Shown: positions 2,158-61,687 of the stretch, piece after piece
Layout of the letters: each line of letters starts with the position of its first letter
Numbering within the stretch: the stretch's first letter is position 1
Assembly (NCBI RefSeq): GCF_009828925.2
Contig: NZ_WUTY02000001.1
Coordinates: forward strand, 2,758,492 to 2,822,491
DNA length: 64,000 nucleotides
Source of the DNA: Methylicorpusculum oleiharenae
Lineage (GTDB): Bacteria; Pseudomonadota; Gammaproteobacteria; Methylococcales; Methylomonadaceae
Direction: 5' to 3'
Notes under the pieces: model-generated
The model's input: the letters and a program-made list of their open reading frames with translations, nothing else
Database searches by the model: none
Told to the model about the DNA's origin: nothing
Translations under genes and position numbers: made by a program

Positions 2158-2308
2158 GACATCACCTATATATTAACAAGTGCTAATACTCTACTATAAA
2201 TTAACGTTCTTGTTGAATAAAATAGATACTTTTTAGATAGAAATGAATAAAGATTCAGCAAAAAATTATGCGTGGGTGTATTTCCGGACGGCTTTATTCT
2301 ATGAAAAC

Positions 2309-2461
2309 GTAACTACTCGTCCGCTTTGAATTGAGGGTGTAGGTGATTTATTTCAAAGGATGCTTGAAAAAGTCCATGTGGCTCTCTCCAACATCTCTGT
2401 TGCAGAAGCCTTTTCAATCAATCCTCCACACCCAATAAAATTGCAGCGGGTGAGCAGATAC
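2309..2461 (+). mobile_element. Family A miniature element, copy A1 (MITE-like)
   Basis: A 153-bp element beginning GTAACTACTCG and ending GAGCAGATAC, so the ends form an imperfect inverted repeat (GTAWCTRCTC, 8 of 10). It is flanked by a perfect 8-bp direct repeat, ATGAAAAC (2301-2308 and 2462-2469), as expected of a target-site duplication. Its reverse complement aligns along nearly its whole length with copy A3 (38907-39060). It has no coding capacity. It occupies most of the 2158-2603 gap between the YeeE/YedE operon and the lipoprotein gene. Confidence 0.85.
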
Positions 2462-2603
2462 ATGAAAACAATTAAAGATGGCATAATAGGGTTAATTAAT
2501 TATGATTTAGCTTGCTATGAATAGCTGTTTAAGTACTTGAATTGAGTGAAGAAAAAGATAATTTCGCGCAGACTATCAATCAGGTTATCCACCTCTCTTA
2601 TAA

Positions 2604-12725: not shown

Positions 12726-12835
12726 GGCATAGCCCTTCTGGTTAAGTATTCGTATGTCATCCGGCCCCGGTCGGTCTGACCGCGTTCGGATGAGTTATTA
12801 CCCATTACATTTTGTTAGCTGAATAATTCCGTTTG

Positions 12836-12858
12836 ATTCAAAGCGGGCGAGTAGTTAC
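12836..12858 (-). repeat. Family A end fragment (A2)
   Basis: 23 bp, including GGGCGAGTAGTTAC, match the right end of copy A3 (39038-39060). Only this terminal fragment is present, between eda and gltA. It may be a decayed insertion. Confidence 0.6.
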
Positions 12859-12884
12859 CAAAAATGTTTAATTCTCTGGAACTA

Positions 12885-19633: not shown

Positions 19634-19782
19634 AATAATTCTCAGTATGAACTTTTTATGTGGCTTTGAGGGTTGGCGTAAGCCTTGCGAGGAACGCCGT
19701 AGACCCATCCATGGGAGCTTTGGCGGCAGCATCCACGCAAAGCTTAAGCCTCTCCCTCTTAATCATCAAACTGGGAATCGTA
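19634..19782 (+). mobile_element. Family B miniature element, copy B1
   Basis: About 149 bp with ends TTCTCAGT and ACTGGGAA forming an imperfect inverted repeat. It is flanked by the 11-bp direct repeat GCGAGGTTTAC (19623-19633 and 19783-19793). The core GGCTTTGAGGGTTGGCGTA and CGCCGTAGACCCATCCA is shared with B2 (36369-36532). It lies in the purK to Anbu gap (19575-19900). Short frames through it are not genes. Confidence 0.7.
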
Positions 19783-31566: not shown

Positions 31567-31967
31567 CCAGGCGTGGGTAGTTGTTTGTACCCATCGTAGA
31601 TCGAAATTCGGCACCGGGGTGCCCGTCAAAGGACGCCGTAAATACATCCATGTAGGCTCTATGCCAGCATCCATGCTGGCAAAGCCTTTGCCGAACAACC
31701 CGTTGCCTCCTTAGACACTGCCGGAATTTGAAGTGCGAAAGGTATATCAGGCCTCTGTTCTGATTTTCTATAACCGGAGTCTAACTTATTCCTTTCATAT
31801 TGAAAAATCTTCGACTTTGATAAAGGGACGGGATGTGCCTTTAGAGGTCCGCCGTGAATCCGTCCATGAAGGCTTGACTGCAGCTTTCCTGCTGCCGACA
31901 TCCTCGCCAAACACCCCCCGCACCTTCTTGAACCAAAATAGGTTTAGATCAGATAGGGGGGGCTCAT
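31567..31967. repeat. Two degenerate family B repeats (B3, B4)
   Basis: The gap between tusC and ettA has two copies of the family B core. At about 31610-31700 it reads GACGCCGTAAATACATCCA with a GCCAGCATCCATGCTGGC hairpin; at about 31845-31920 it reads CCGCCGTGAATCCGTCCA with GCAG...CTGC arms. A GGCACC-GGGGTGCC palindrome lies at 31601-31613. No intact ends or target duplications were found. Open frames across the gap follow the repeats and are not genes. Confidence 0.55.
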
Positions 31968-36368: not shown

Positions 36369-36532
36369 CCAGCAAATACCCAGTTTAAACTTTTAAGGTG
36401 GCTTTGAGGGTTGGCGTAGGCCTTGCGAGGATCGCCGTAGACCCATCCAACGGGAGCGGCGGCATCCCTGCTGCCGGCATCCCCGCAAAGCTTGCGCCAT
36501 CCCTTTTTTATCATCTCACTGGGAATTGCTGG
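36369..36532 (+). mobile_element. Family B miniature element, copy B2 (MITE-like)
   Basis: 164 bp with terminal inverted repeats CCAGCAAATACCCAGT (36369-36384) and ACTGGGAATTGCTGG (36518-36532). It is flanked by a perfect 7-bp direct repeat CTTTTAA (36362-36368 and 36533-36539), as expected of a target duplication. The core resembles B1 (GGCTTTGAGGGTTGGCGTA, CGCCGTAGACCCATCCA). No coding capacity. It lies between hemN and the sigma54-type regulator. Confidence 0.8.
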
Positions 36533-36576: not shown

Positions 36577-37905
36577 ATGAATGAGTCCTTTTTAACCTGG
36601 ATGGAGCAATTCAATGATGCCGAACTTCTGGCGCGATTGTTTCAATTATTCAACGATCTGCCTTTTTATGCCGTAGATGAAGCTGGCCGCGTCCTGTTCT
36701 GGAATCCGGCTCTTGAGGATATCACCGGCTTCATGCAAACTGAGCTTTTAGGGCAGCCATCGCCGATCGCTTGTCCGCGTGATTATCCGAATGATGTTTT
36801 AATCCGGTCGATCGAATTTCAATCTAACGCCGGAAAAGTCATGCAACTGACAGTAAGAGAGCGGGGGCTGTTTGGACCTGATGGCGAACTGGCCGGCGCT
36901 GTTGCATGGGTCGCCGTTGACCGTGATCTTGAATCTGACAAACAGCCCGCCATCAAGCCTGTTGAACCCACTCAAAACTTTCATGGCATTATCAGTCGGT
37001 CGCCTGCAATGGAAGCGGTATTTCAAATTATACAGAACGCGGCCCAAACAGAAGCCACCGTTCTGGTCAGAGGGGAAAGCGGTTCCGGCAAGGAACTGGT
37101 TGCCCGGGCAATTCATGATCTCAGTATGCGCAGGCAGGCACCTTTTTTGGCCATCAATTGCGCGGCATTGTCTGCAAACTTGCTGGAAAGCGAATTATTC
37201 GGGCATGTTCGGGGTGCTTTTACCGGTGCCATCAAAGATCATCCGGGGTTATTTCAAAGAGCCAAAGGCGGCACGCTTTTTTTGGACGAAGTGGCTGAAC
37301 TGCCATTGGAACTTCAAGCCAAATTATTACGGGTCATTCAGGAACGAAATTACTATCCGGTTGGCGGAGACCGATTACTGGATGTGGATGTGCGTCTGGT
37401 TGCGGCCACCCATCGTTCGCTCCGTGAAGAGGTGAAATCAGGGCAATTTCGTGAAGATTTAATGTACCGCTTGCGGGTTGTACCTATTTTTTTGCCTTCT
37501 TTACGTGAACGAAGAGAAGATATTCCTCTTTTACTTTGGCATTTCATCCGATTACACAACGCCCAGAATTTTAGAAAAATAGAAAAAATTGATCCGCAAG
37601 CGATGCGGGTTTTGCTGGATTATCACTGGCCGGGTAATATCAGGGAATTACATAATATTATAGAATACGCCTTTGCCGTTGGACGGGGAGCTTGTCTGAG
37701 ATTGAGTGAGTTACCCCCCGAATTCAGGGAAGCGGCCAAACCGGAACCGATACTGCAGACACCTGTCCTTACGGCGAAAAATGAAGAGGACTTTATCCGC
37801 GAGGCACTTAAACGGTCTTCAGGGTCAGTTGAGGCTGCGGCCGGCATGCTGGGTATGAGTCGCGTTACATTTTGGCGAAAACGCAAACGTTATGGCATAG
37901 AATGA
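36577..37905 (+). CDS. PAS-containing sigma54-dependent transcription activator
   Basis: 442 residues. The N-terminal PAS domain (about 15-120) includes [23 protein letters not shown]. The AAA+ domain starts near residue 140, with Walker A GESGSGKE at 166-173, the sigma54-contacting GAFTGA at 213-218 and [23 protein letters not shown] as Walker B. A Fis-type helix-turn-helix ([25 protein letters not shown]) ends the protein. There is no receiver domain, so the PAS ligand or cofactor probably controls it directly. No kinase or sigma54 target gene lies next to it. Regulated genes are unknown. Confidence 0.93.
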
Positions 37906-37928
37906 CTGTCAAATCACTTTTCTAAATA

Positions 37929-38855
37929 ATGCCGATGCGGATTACGTTACATCAATTACAACTCTTCGATGCGGCAGCAAGAATGCCCAGTTTTAAAGCA
38001 GCAGCCGAGGCGTTGAATTTGAGTCCGCCAGCCTTGAGTATTCAACTTAAAATTCTGGAAGAATCCCTGGGCGTCAGTCTATTTGAGCAGATCGGCAAGA
38101 AAAAATACCTGACGTCGCCGGGCTTGGAACTTCAGCAAGTCTGTCACCGCATTTTTGACGAACTGAATCATCTGGATATGCGATTCACGCAACTGCGTGG
38201 CGGTATGGCGGGAAAGTTGAGTATCGCCATCGTGACCAGTGCTAAATATTTTACGCCGCATTTGTTTGGTGCCTTTCAAAGGGTTTATCCTAATGTAGAA
38301 TTCAACATGATGGTTGCCAATCGCACCCGAATACTGGAGCGGCTGGAAAATAATGCAGATGATTTGGTGATCATGGCGCATGTGCCCGATGCCTTTGATA
38401 TAAAGGCCGTAGATTTTCTGGATAATCCTCTGATTGTTATTGCTTCACCGGATCACCCGTTGGTGAATGTCAAAAATATATCCTTTGAACAACTTGCGCA
38501 GCAGCCTTTTTTAATCAGGGAAAGCGGTTCAGGAACCCGAATGGCGGTTGAGCAGTATTTCAGTTCCCACAATGCGGCGATGAAAGTGGCAATGGAGTTG
38601 GGAAGCAGTGAGGCGATTAAACAAGGCGTTCTGGCGGGTTTGGGTATTTCCATACTCTCTCGCCACTGCGTGTGGCTGGAATTGAAAACGGGCTTTTTAA
38701 AGCAGTTGGATGTACAGGGCTATCCTGATGTGCGGTCCTGGTATGTCGTTTACCGCGTAGGCAAGCAACTTTCACCGGTTGCCGAGGCCTTCATCAAATT
38801 TATTGTTGCTAATGGACAGATAATGCTGGATGAAGTGGAACAACTGTATCGATAG
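37929..38855 (+). CDS. LysR-family regulator, CbbR/PycR-like
   Basis: 308 residues. An N-terminal winged helix (ITLHQLQLFDAAARMPSFKAAAEALNLSPPALSIQLKILEES, split by family spacing) is followed by a LysR effector domain (about 95-300). The long helix and sequence resemble CbbR, the regulator of Calvin-cycle genes. The neighbour downstream is pyruvate carboxylase, and in pseudomonads a LysR protein (PycR) precedes pycA, so control of pycAB is plausible. The ATG at 37935 (MRITLHQ) is another possible start. Two mobile repeats now separate it from pycA. Confidence 0.88.
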   Translation: MPMRITLHQLQLFDAAARMPSFKAAAEALNLSPPALSIQLKILEESLGVSLFEQIGKKKYLTSPGLELQQVCHRIFDELNHLDMRFTQLRGGMAGKLSIAIVTSAKYFTPHLFGAFQRVYPNVEFNMMVANRTRILERLENNADDLVIMAHVPDAFDIKAVDFLDNPLIVIASPDHPLVNVKNISFEQLAQQPFLIRESGSGTRMAVEQYFSSHNAAMKVAMELGSSEAIKQGVLAGLGISILSRHCVWLELKTGFLKQLDVQGYPDVRSWYVVYRVGKQLSPVAEAFIKFIVANGQIMLDEVEQLYR

Positions 38856-38906
38856 CTTAACGCTTAAGAGCTATTTGAAAATTGTTCGAAGAAATAAATA
38901 GTACGG

Positions 38907-39060
38907 GTCTCTGCTCACCCCCTTCCAATTTTATTGGGTGTAGGTGGTTGATTGAAAAGGCTTCTGCAACAGGGATGTTACAGAGAGCTACAGGGACGTG
39001 TTTACGCGTCCTTTGAAATCAAGCACCTACATCCTTAATTCAAAGCGGGCGAGTAGTTAC
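38907..39060 (-). mobile_element. Family A miniature element, copy A3 (MITE-like)
   Basis: 154 bp in the opposite orientation to A1, with ends GTCTCTGCTC and GAGTAGTTAC. The flanks TAGTACGG (38899-38906) and TGGTACGG (39061-39068) match at 7 of 8 bases, an aged 8-bp target duplication. The inside carries subterminal inverted repeats around GGTGNTTGATT and AATCAAGCACC. Non-coding. It is the first of three repeats in the lysR-pycA gap. Confidence 0.85.
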
Positions 39061-39454
39061 TGGTACGGTACATTAACAATAAGTTTATCCACGGAAAAGT
39101 TAAAACCACGAAAGTATTCAAGGCGATAGCTCGTTGCAGAACCATAACCTAACGACCCTAACGATGTATATATTATCCTGGAAAATGAAAGTACCTGGTT
39201 ATGATCGTGCACTTTTACAGTCAAGGGGAATAGTGTATTTCTGTAACGGTCTGATATTCTAGGTCATTTAGTGCATTTGGAGAGCTAAAATCGGTTTTTC
39301 GAGGAATAGGTTAACGGCGTTATCATGGCTTTTATCGTTTAGTTTTATTTAACTATTCCGTTAAAATAATTAAATGTATTTAAGTTGCTAACTGGCTTAT
39401 GCTTAAAATCAAGTAACTGTCCAGCGAAACAACAAAACGAAGAAGATGCACCGG

Positions 39455-39491
39455 GTAGTTGGGTTAGGCTCTCCGAGCTAACCCAACCTAC
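39455..39491. repeat. Palindromic repeat, family C (short copy)
   Basis: GTAGTTGGGTTAGGCTCT and its near-inverse ending AGCTAACCCAACCTAC form a 37-bp hairpin. It lies between the two family A elements of the lysR-pycA gap and is related to 17644-17729. Confidence 0.6.
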
Positions 39492-39511
39492 TCTGAAACA
39501 TTACAAATTAA

Positions 39512-39664
39512 GTAACTACTCGCTCACCTGGAATAGAGGATTTAGGTGCTTGATTGAACAGGATTGTGCAACGGGGATGTTGCAGAGAGCTTCAGGGATG
39601 TATTTATGCGCCCTTTGAAATCAAGCGTCTACACCCAATAAAATGGAAGGGTGTGAGCAGATAC
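39512..39664 (+). mobile_element. Family A miniature element, copy A4, with inverted core
   Basis: 153 bp, beginning GTAACTACTCG and ending GAGCAGATAC like A1. It is flanked by a perfect 8-bp direct repeat CAAATTAA (39504-39511 and 39665-39672). Its inner 75 bp or so, however, aligns with A3 on the same strand while its ends align with A1, so the core is inverted relative to the arms. It ends 34 bp before the likely pycA start, so the pycA promoter or leader must lie in or beside it. Confidence 0.85.
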
Positions 39665-39697
39665 CAAATTAATATCATTACGGGGTCTCCAGCTGTT

Positions 39698-41116
39698 ATG
39701 TTACGCAAAATTCTTATCGCCAATCGCGGCGAAATTGCTGTCAGAATTATCAGGGCCTGTGCAGAAATGGGCATTCGCTCGGTAGCAATCTATTCAGAGG
39801 CGGACCGTTTTGCACTGCATGTCAAAAAGGCGGATGAATCCTACTGCATAGGAAGTGAACCTCTTGCGGGTTATCTTAACCCTCACGCCTTAGTCAACCT
39901 CGCTGCTGCAACCGGCTGCGATGCCATTCATCCGGGTTATGGATTTTTGTCTGAAAATGCACTTTTTGCTAAAATCTGCAAAGACCGTGGGCTGGTTTTT
40001 ATAGGTCCGGAGCCCGATGTCATTCATCGCATGGGCGATAAAACCGAAGCCCGTAAAGCAATGATTAAAGCCGGTATTCCGGTGACGCCCGGTTCAGAAG
40101 GCAATGTTGCCAATGTCGAAGAAGCACTGTCCATAGCGGAACAAATCGGTTATCCGATCATGTTGAAAGCAACGTCCGGCGGGGGCGGCAGGGGCATTCG
40201 CCGCTGCGATAGTCAGCAGGAATTGCTGCAAAACTACGACAGGGTTATTTCCGAGGCGACCAAAGCTTTTGGAAGTGCCGACGTATTTTTGGAAAAATGT
40301 GTCGTCAATCCAAGGCATATTGAAGTGCAGGTGCTGGCCGATCATCACGGCAATACCATTCATCTTTACGAACGCGATTGTTCCATTCAGCGCCGCAATC
40401 AAAAGTTGATCGAAATAGCCCCCTCGCCCCAGCTCGATGAAGCTCAGCGCCAGTATATCGGGGGGCTTGCCGTGTTGGCGGCCAAAGCGGTGGGTTATAC
40501 CAATGCGGGGACAGTAGAGTTCTTGCTGGATGACAAAGACCGTTTTTACTTTATGGAAATGAATACCCGCGTTCAGGTTGAGCATACCATTACTGAAACC
40601 ATTACTGGCGTGGATATTGTCGAAGAACAAATCCGGGTTGCTGCCGGCTTACCCTTGCGTTTCAAGCAAGAGGAAATCAAACGCAGGGGCTACGCCATTC
40701 AGTTTCGCGTCAATGCCGAAGACCCGAAAAACAGTTTTTTACCCAGTTTCGGACATATTTCCCGTTATTACGCGCCGGGCGGTCCGGGTGTGCGTACCGA
40801 TACAGCTATTTATACCGGCTATGAAGTCCCGCCATTTTATGACTCCATGCTGGCTAAAGTGATTGTGAATGCGCATACCTGGGAAGATGCCATCAAGCGT
40901 GGGGAAAGAGCGCTCAAAGATATGGGTTTGTTCGGCATTAAAACGACGATCCCTTATTATTTGAAAATTTTGAGCCACCCTGAGTTTCGATCCGGCCGCT
41001 TCAATACCAGCTTTGTCGAAAGTCATCCCGAACTGGTCAATTATTCGTTAAAACCCAGACCTGAAGTATTGGCCAGCGTAATTGCTGCAGCCATGGCCGC
41101 GCATACCGGTCTTTGA
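39698..41116 (+). CDS. pycA: Pyruvate carboxylase subunit A (biotin carboxylase)
   Basis: 472 residues, AccC-type. It carboxylates biotin with bicarbonate and ATP. It starts MLRKILIANRGEIAVRIIRACAEMGI; the ATP-grasp glycine loop is ATSGGGGRGIR and the catalytic region MEMNTRVQVEHTITE. The frame stays open upstream to 39554, but that part is inside repeat A4, and the family begins at the ATG at 39698. pycB follows 24 bp later, which marks this as the biotin carboxylase of a two-subunit pyruvate carboxylase rather than of acetyl-CoA carboxylase. Confidence 0.92.
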   Translation: MLRKILIANRGEIAVRIIRACAEMGIRSVAIYSEADRFALHVKKADESYCIGSEPLAGYLNPHALVNLAAATGCDAIHPGYGFLSENALFAKICKDRGLVFIGPEPDVIHRMGDKTEARKAMIKAGIPVTPGSEGNVANVEEALSIAEQIGYPIMLKATSGGGGRGIRRCDSQQELLQNYDRVISEATKAFGSADVFLEKCVVNPRHIEVQVLADHHGNTIHLYERDCSIQRRNQKLIEIAPSPQLDEAQRQYIGGLAVLAAKAVGYTNAGTVEFLLDDKDRFYFMEMNTRVQVEHTITETITGVDIVEEQIRVAAGLPLRFKQEEIKRRGYAIQFRVNAEDPKNSFLPSFGHISRYYAPGGPGVRTDTAIYTGYEVPPFYDSMLAKVIVNAHTWEDAIKRGERALKDMGLFGIKTTIPYYLKILSHPEFRSGRFNTSFVESHPELVNYSLKPRPEVLASVIAAAMAAHTGL

Positions 41117-61613: not shown

Positions 61614-61687
61614 GTAACTACTCGCCCGCTTTGAATTAAGGGTGTAGGTGGTTGATTTCAATGGATACGAAAATAGGTCCCTGTAGT
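61614..61687 (+). mobile_element. Family A element, truncated copy A5
   Basis: It begins GTAACTACTCGCCCGC and matches the first 70 bp or so of A1, then loses similarity near 61687. Only one end remains and no target duplication is visible. It lies between fumA and the Rieske gene. Confidence 0.7.

Follow-up and report, generated by a model that had tools for sequence, protein, structure and literature searches.

The question raised by this locus is what kind of element its short repeats, here called family A, represent and by what they are moved. Within the window (the whole stretch of 64,000 nucleotides that was analysed, C1:2758492-2822491 of a host genome of 5.85 Mb in three contigs), the family is present as copies A1, A3 and A4, each 153-154 bp long with 8-bp duplications at its sides, and as two incomplete copies (Table 1). 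The initial annotation took them for a miniature inverted-repeat transposable element (MITE), and its coordinates and duplications for the three copies proved exact: the duplications of A1 (ATGAAAAC) and A4 (CAAATTAA) are perfect over 8 bp on both sides, and those of A3 (TAGTACGG/TGGTACGG) are identical at seven of eight positions. Family A has no coding capacity and no tnpC. The proposed GTAWCTRCTC-type ends also stand, since this pattern matches the genome 135 times and the reversed control pattern 60 times, but the shared terminal repeat has to be longer than these 10 bp because the left end (GTAACTACTCGCCC) and the right end (GTATCTGCTCACCCCC) can be told apart. The terminal inverted repeats are imperfect (GTAACTACTCGCCC / GTATCTGCTCACCC). 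A second repeat family, at 19637-19778 and 36375-36526 (77% identity over ~155 bp), is unrelated to family A according to BLAST.

Table 1. Features of family A, related cores and candidate mover fragments; positions refer to the window except in the last row, where they refer to contig C1 of the host genome.
Feature	Position	Strand	Detail
A1 left target duplication	2301..2308	.	ATGAAAAC
MITE copy A1, subfamily I	2309..2461	+	left end GTAACTACTC, right end GTATCTGCTC
YPAL-like two-hairpin core in A1	2355..2412	-	50.6 bits
A1 right target duplication	2462..2469	.	ATGAAAAC
Family A fragment, end only	12833..12860	-	GTAACTACTC at 12849-12858
YPAL-like core in another repeat family that lacks IS66-type ends	31628..31688	-	70.7 bits
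A3 target duplication	38899..38906	.	TAGTACGG
MITE copy A3, subfamily I	38907..39060	- (opposite to A1)	site empty in G001, G002
YPAL-like core in A3	38957..39014	+	73.3 bits
A3 target duplication	39061..39068	.	TGGTACGG
A4 target duplication	39504..39511	.	CAAATTAA
MITE copy A4, subfamily II, core inverted relative to ends	39512..39664	+	site empty in G001, G002
YPAL-like core in A4	39559..39616	+	51.5 bits
A4 target duplication	39665..39672	.	CAAATTAA
Family A half copy, truncated (left end and some core)	61614..61686	+	
Fragments of candidate mover IS	C1 3349349-3349815; 3068415-3069016; 2720360-2720595		

A search of the full genome for the element, as the initial annotation had proposed, places family A at no fewer than 57 distinct sites (at least 57 with BLAST queries A1 and A4 pooled; A1 finds about 40 places and A4 adds more). 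Another 20 or so exact matches to the ends fall elsewhere in the genome, and several of these are evidently relatives that are shorter or truncated. Among 49 two-ended copies the 8-bp duplications are perfect in 15 and have one mismatch in 16, so that 31 of the 49 show at most one mismatch, whereas among control pairings, in which the left and right flanks come from different copies, just 7 of 2,352 (0.3%) do so. This bears out the claim that the copies arose by transposition and not by chance. In the first 30 loci an exact perfect repeat of 8 bp occurs nine times and none of the remaining lengths between 4 and 12 bp is seen more than once; the duplication length is specifically 8 bp. The region 37900-40300 aligns to contig C67 of G001 and contig C107 of G002, two congeneric genomes that both lack A3 and A4. 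After excision of the element and one copy of the duplication, one junction reads TAGTACGGTACATT here and TAATAAGGTACATT in G002, and the other ATTACAAATTAATATC here, ATTACAAATTTATATC in G002 and ATTACAAAATTACTATC in G001. Since the congeners keep one copy of the duplication, as had been predicted, A3 and A4 are insertions here and not deletions there. The reading of family A as a MITE is supported by its inverted ends, by dozens of sites with 8-bp duplications, by the empty sites in the two congeners and by the lack of coding capacity. Among named genomes, a 23-base end pattern is matched exactly only in Methylicorpusculum sp. E9_concoct.bin.41 and Methylomicrobium sp. CROMO_BS_115_2, and no copies of the whole A3 element were found in plasmids and phages. 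Many metagenome-assembled contigs of G001 (C7, C24, C46, C56 and C78 among them) terminate within family A copies; because the repeat breaks assemblies, its copy number is underestimated in such genomes.

Prokaryotic MITEs such as Correia/NEMIS, RUP and ERIC are likewise short, non-coding, hairpin-forming and multi-copy, with inverted ends and target duplications, and family A differs from them in combining 8-bp duplications with IS66-type ends. A recent review of prokaryotic MITEs does not mention IS66 (PMC10969869), and we found no description of family A in the literature on IS66-related or methanotroph MITEs. As a MITE, family A is ordinary in kind; what is unusual is that its ends and its core have separate histories, together with the behaviour of the core elsewhere.

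The best candidate for the mover is a single-gene IS66-family element of ~1.69 kb with ends GTAACTACTCGCCCC / GTAACTACTCACCCCC and 8-bp duplications. Across the family, elements of this subgroup have ends GTAACTACTCGCCCC and GTAACTACTC(A/G)CCCCC or close variants, with one gene seen. The transposase, TnpC, has the IS66 DDE domain (PF03050, E 6e-37; NCBIfam NF033517 above cut-off), and its frame is open over 483 aa in G001 and 479 aa in G034; a sequence search for a solved structure of TnpC returned none. As expected of IS66, the ends start with GTA and the duplications are 8 bp long, perfectly so in G002 (GAAAGCCT), G034 (GCCGATTT), G011 and G101. Single-gene IS66 elements (TnpC only) thus share with family A the ends GTAACTACTC... 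and the duplication length, and differ from it in that family A measures 153 bp, lacks tnpC and has an unrelated interior. The match between MITE and IS ends is short, 14-17 bp: the left end of the MITE agrees with that of the G002 IS (GTAACTACTCGCCC) at 14 of 14 positions and the right end (GTAACTACTCACCCCCT in the IS) at 15 of 17, with mismatches at positions 4 and 7, and both elements carry G on the left and A on the right (CTCG vs CTCA). In G034 both IS ends are GTAACTACTCGCCCC, and the local MITE relatives, which have 8-bp duplications, are of the G type at both ends. MITE ends track IS ends across genera. Family A is almost certainly mobilised by a borrowed IS66-type enzyme, and very likely it is a non-autonomous MITE moved in trans by the TnpC of a single-gene IS66 element and built around a core unrelated to that IS. 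TnpC would recognise both MITE ends and paste the element into mostly AT-rich intergenic DNA, giving rise to the 8-bp duplication.

The initial annotation had also argued that an autonomous relative elsewhere must move the element. Such a relative can be named: it belongs to the IS66 family, has matching ends and makes 8-bp duplications. The host itself, however, offers fragments and two distant IS66 copies, and the best matches with open frames are in related genomes. In the host genome the matching IS survives as fragments of at most 88% identity (Table 1), and because nothing else of it is left, movement here may have slowed or stopped. Copies of subfamily I have a median pairwise identity of 96.7% in G001 and 91.5% in the host, and the greater likeness of the G001 copies fits an intact mover in that genome. 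Nonetheless, the flanks of the G001 IS copy do not match, and the reading frame of the G002 copy appears broken. A derivative of this IS, ~420 bp long with an internal deletion and both ends kept, lies at G001:C141:2249-2668 (L232/L236) in the congener.

It is unlikely that the true mover here is instead the distant IS66 element present in two copies in the host (1,766 bp, AGCG-type ends), tolerating the ends of the MITE because the outer 10 bp are common to both. This element, with ends GTAATTACTCAGCG / GTAACTACTCAGCG recovered by a PF03050 search, is the one that the host possesses in full: both copies have identical open TnpC frames of 474 aa and perfect 8-bp duplications. Moreover, a MITE in G089 with the same kind of core has AGCG-type ends and a perfect 8-bp duplication, so this subgroup probably moves such elements. 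However, the match of the AGCG-type element to family A ends at base 10, whereas the candidate mover with CCCC-type ends matches over 14-17 bp and shares the left/right difference. In another methanotroph, G123, there are 77 matches to the AGCG-type IS66 transposase, many of them fragmentary, which indicates strong amplification and decay.

Copies in the host fall into two subfamilies with common ends, consensus I built from 27 copies including A1 and A3, and consensus II from 16 including A4. They differ in the orientation of a 103-bp core, which agrees at 100 of 103 positions when one consensus is read on the opposite strand. Such 97% identity in inverted orientation might point to continuing flip-flop of a hairpin or to independent captures of the core, yet either seems quite unlikely, since the left-arm type is perfectly linked to core orientation in all typable copies (28/28 in subfamily I and 22/22 in subfamily II) and the inner stem is asymmetric, its asymmetry being reversed along with the core. 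Continuing flip-flop of the core was rejected on account of this linkage. For the same reason, one old inversion of the block is the simplest account and probably the source of the two orientations.

Inside family A the central part consists of two hairpins, ~60 nt in all. Rfam alignments to Ysr224 (RF02770), weak but recurrent, pointed to the Yersinia repeats YPAL/RU-2, and against the published RU-2 sequence (PMC2759123) this core scores 24, compared with a mean of 8.1 and a maximum of 15 in 2,000 shuffles. By alignment, the interior of family A is shown to share ancestry with the central part of Yersinia YPAL/RU-2 and to be unrelated to the IS. YPAL/RU-2 (PMC2759123, PMC2229807) resemble family A in this homologous two-hairpin centre and in being palindromic, intergenic and multi-copy. 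YPAL is, however, ~168 bp long and is reported to be without such terminal repeats and to have duplications of 3-26 bp (PMC2759123, PMC2229807), whereas family A has IS66-like ends in place of YPAL termini and a duplication fixed at 8 bp. Yersinia sRNA 224 (RF02770) has this hairpin motif too. It aligns in L266, L267 and L271, but these related loci score 21-23 bits, below the gathering score of 70, and the window has no match, so that family A is not assigned to it. CGTC-tagged REPs are similar to the core by description, in that they are palindromic, have CGTC close to one end and are not known to have a transposase, and differ as single palindromes of 20-40 bp (PMC3733652).

The core is not confined to family A. 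A query with it finds related elements in 9 of 29 genera of Methylomonadaceae, among them MITEs in G017 (TTTACGAT), G089 (GAACTGGC) and G127 (GATAATGG) that carry IS66-type ends of other kinds between perfect 8-bp duplications, and the core occurs without IS66-type ends in G011, G333 and G498. In the window, the core within a different repeat family (Table 1) has a context like that of the G011 copies (ends like CAAATTTCGGC). A weak core copy outside family A is also seen at 31843-31904 on the minus strand (23.2 bits). A covariance model trained on 12 diverse cores matches 73 of 370 gammaproteobacterial genomes and 63 of 273 genera, about a fifth, at E up to 1e-4 per genome; as 4 of the 12 training rows come from sampled genomes (G333, G498, G011 and the host), a few of the 73 match by construction. 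No core was found in E. coli genomes, and no exact core pattern in viral contigs. To our knowledge, this core was familiar from Yersinia YPAL alone. A limited literature search, with the original YPAL paper outside its scope, established no prior report of the wide spread.

Could the element be kept for a function, as an RNA or a regulatory hairpin, with its spread being secondary? The folding of the consensus is very stable (-63 to -75 kcal/mol), and the core shows compensatory changes across distant taxa: in the 12 diverse cores they fall in 13 cells of a structure made up almost wholly of the first hairpin, against 2.6 in shuffles, none of 500 shuffles reaching 13. In addition, 36 bp separate the end of A4 from the start codon (ATG at 39701) of a biotin-carboxylase-like gene, whose expression A4 may possibly affect; the one promoter-like match within A4 is near shuffled expectation. 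We nevertheless regard a retained function as very unlikely. In 43 host copies pairing is 91.9% both as observed and in shuffles, as neutral decay predicts, congeners have neither A3 nor A4 at the corresponding sites, and Rfam gives no match in the window at the gathering score. Covariation within the genome, being not above shuffles, was rejected as evidence for a functional RNA, and the RNAalifold consensus from the gappy alignment of the 43 copies was uninformative. We found no evidence of a host function for family A.

Least credible of all is that family A is a plain internal-deletion derivative of an IS66 element: the IS does yield such derivatives, as the ~420-bp one with both ends in G001 contig C141 demonstrates, but the MITE interior has no similarity to the IS past the terminal 14-20 bp, which contradicts this origin, and its core is homologous to YPAL and found without IS66 ends in many genomes. 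Given the preferred reading of family A as IS66-type ends around a foreign core, the MITE would have been born when a YPAL-like core came between two such ends.

The surroundings of the core in other genomes may bear on how it arrived there. Forty more copies, drawn from 11 genomes, have the core at a stem's tip; they were taken from the best matches to the covariance model and therefore give no unbiased proportions. When the left arm was scored against the complement of the right arm, 31 copies exceeded the maximum of the mismatched-locus control (12), with the highest at 37. The core often sits atop a long, near-perfect palindrome whose sequence changes from one copy to the next: in G567, G333, G498, G661, G305 and most pairs of G343 and G668, arms of different copies within one genome are no more alike than chance. 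In G011, G636 and G410 copies have arms in common, as in ordinary repeat families. A diverged core also caps a long stem on the conjugative plasmid pDCA of an alphaproteobacterium (L344, NZ_KU922118.1 21431-21486), downstream of a haloalkane dehalogenase gene and adjoining an ISAs1 transposase gene. Two pDCA plasmids both carry this same core insert.

Based on these observations, we put forward, as a speculation that is unlikely to hold, that the core is a widespread module whose insertion either targets palindromes or creates one by inverted copying of a flank; next to an IS66 end, an inverted copy of this kind would produce a ready-made MITE with two ends that a transposase recognises. The targets of YPAL are reported to extend across or lie next to regions of dyad symmetry (PMC2229807), which, for YPAL, favours the palindrome-seeking variant. 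If true, this would be a new route to the birth of MITEs, distinct from internal deletion of an IS. The ends and the interiors of MITEs can have separate histories, and for a MITE family that litters a group of methane-oxidising bacteria both a likely mover and an old core can now be named.
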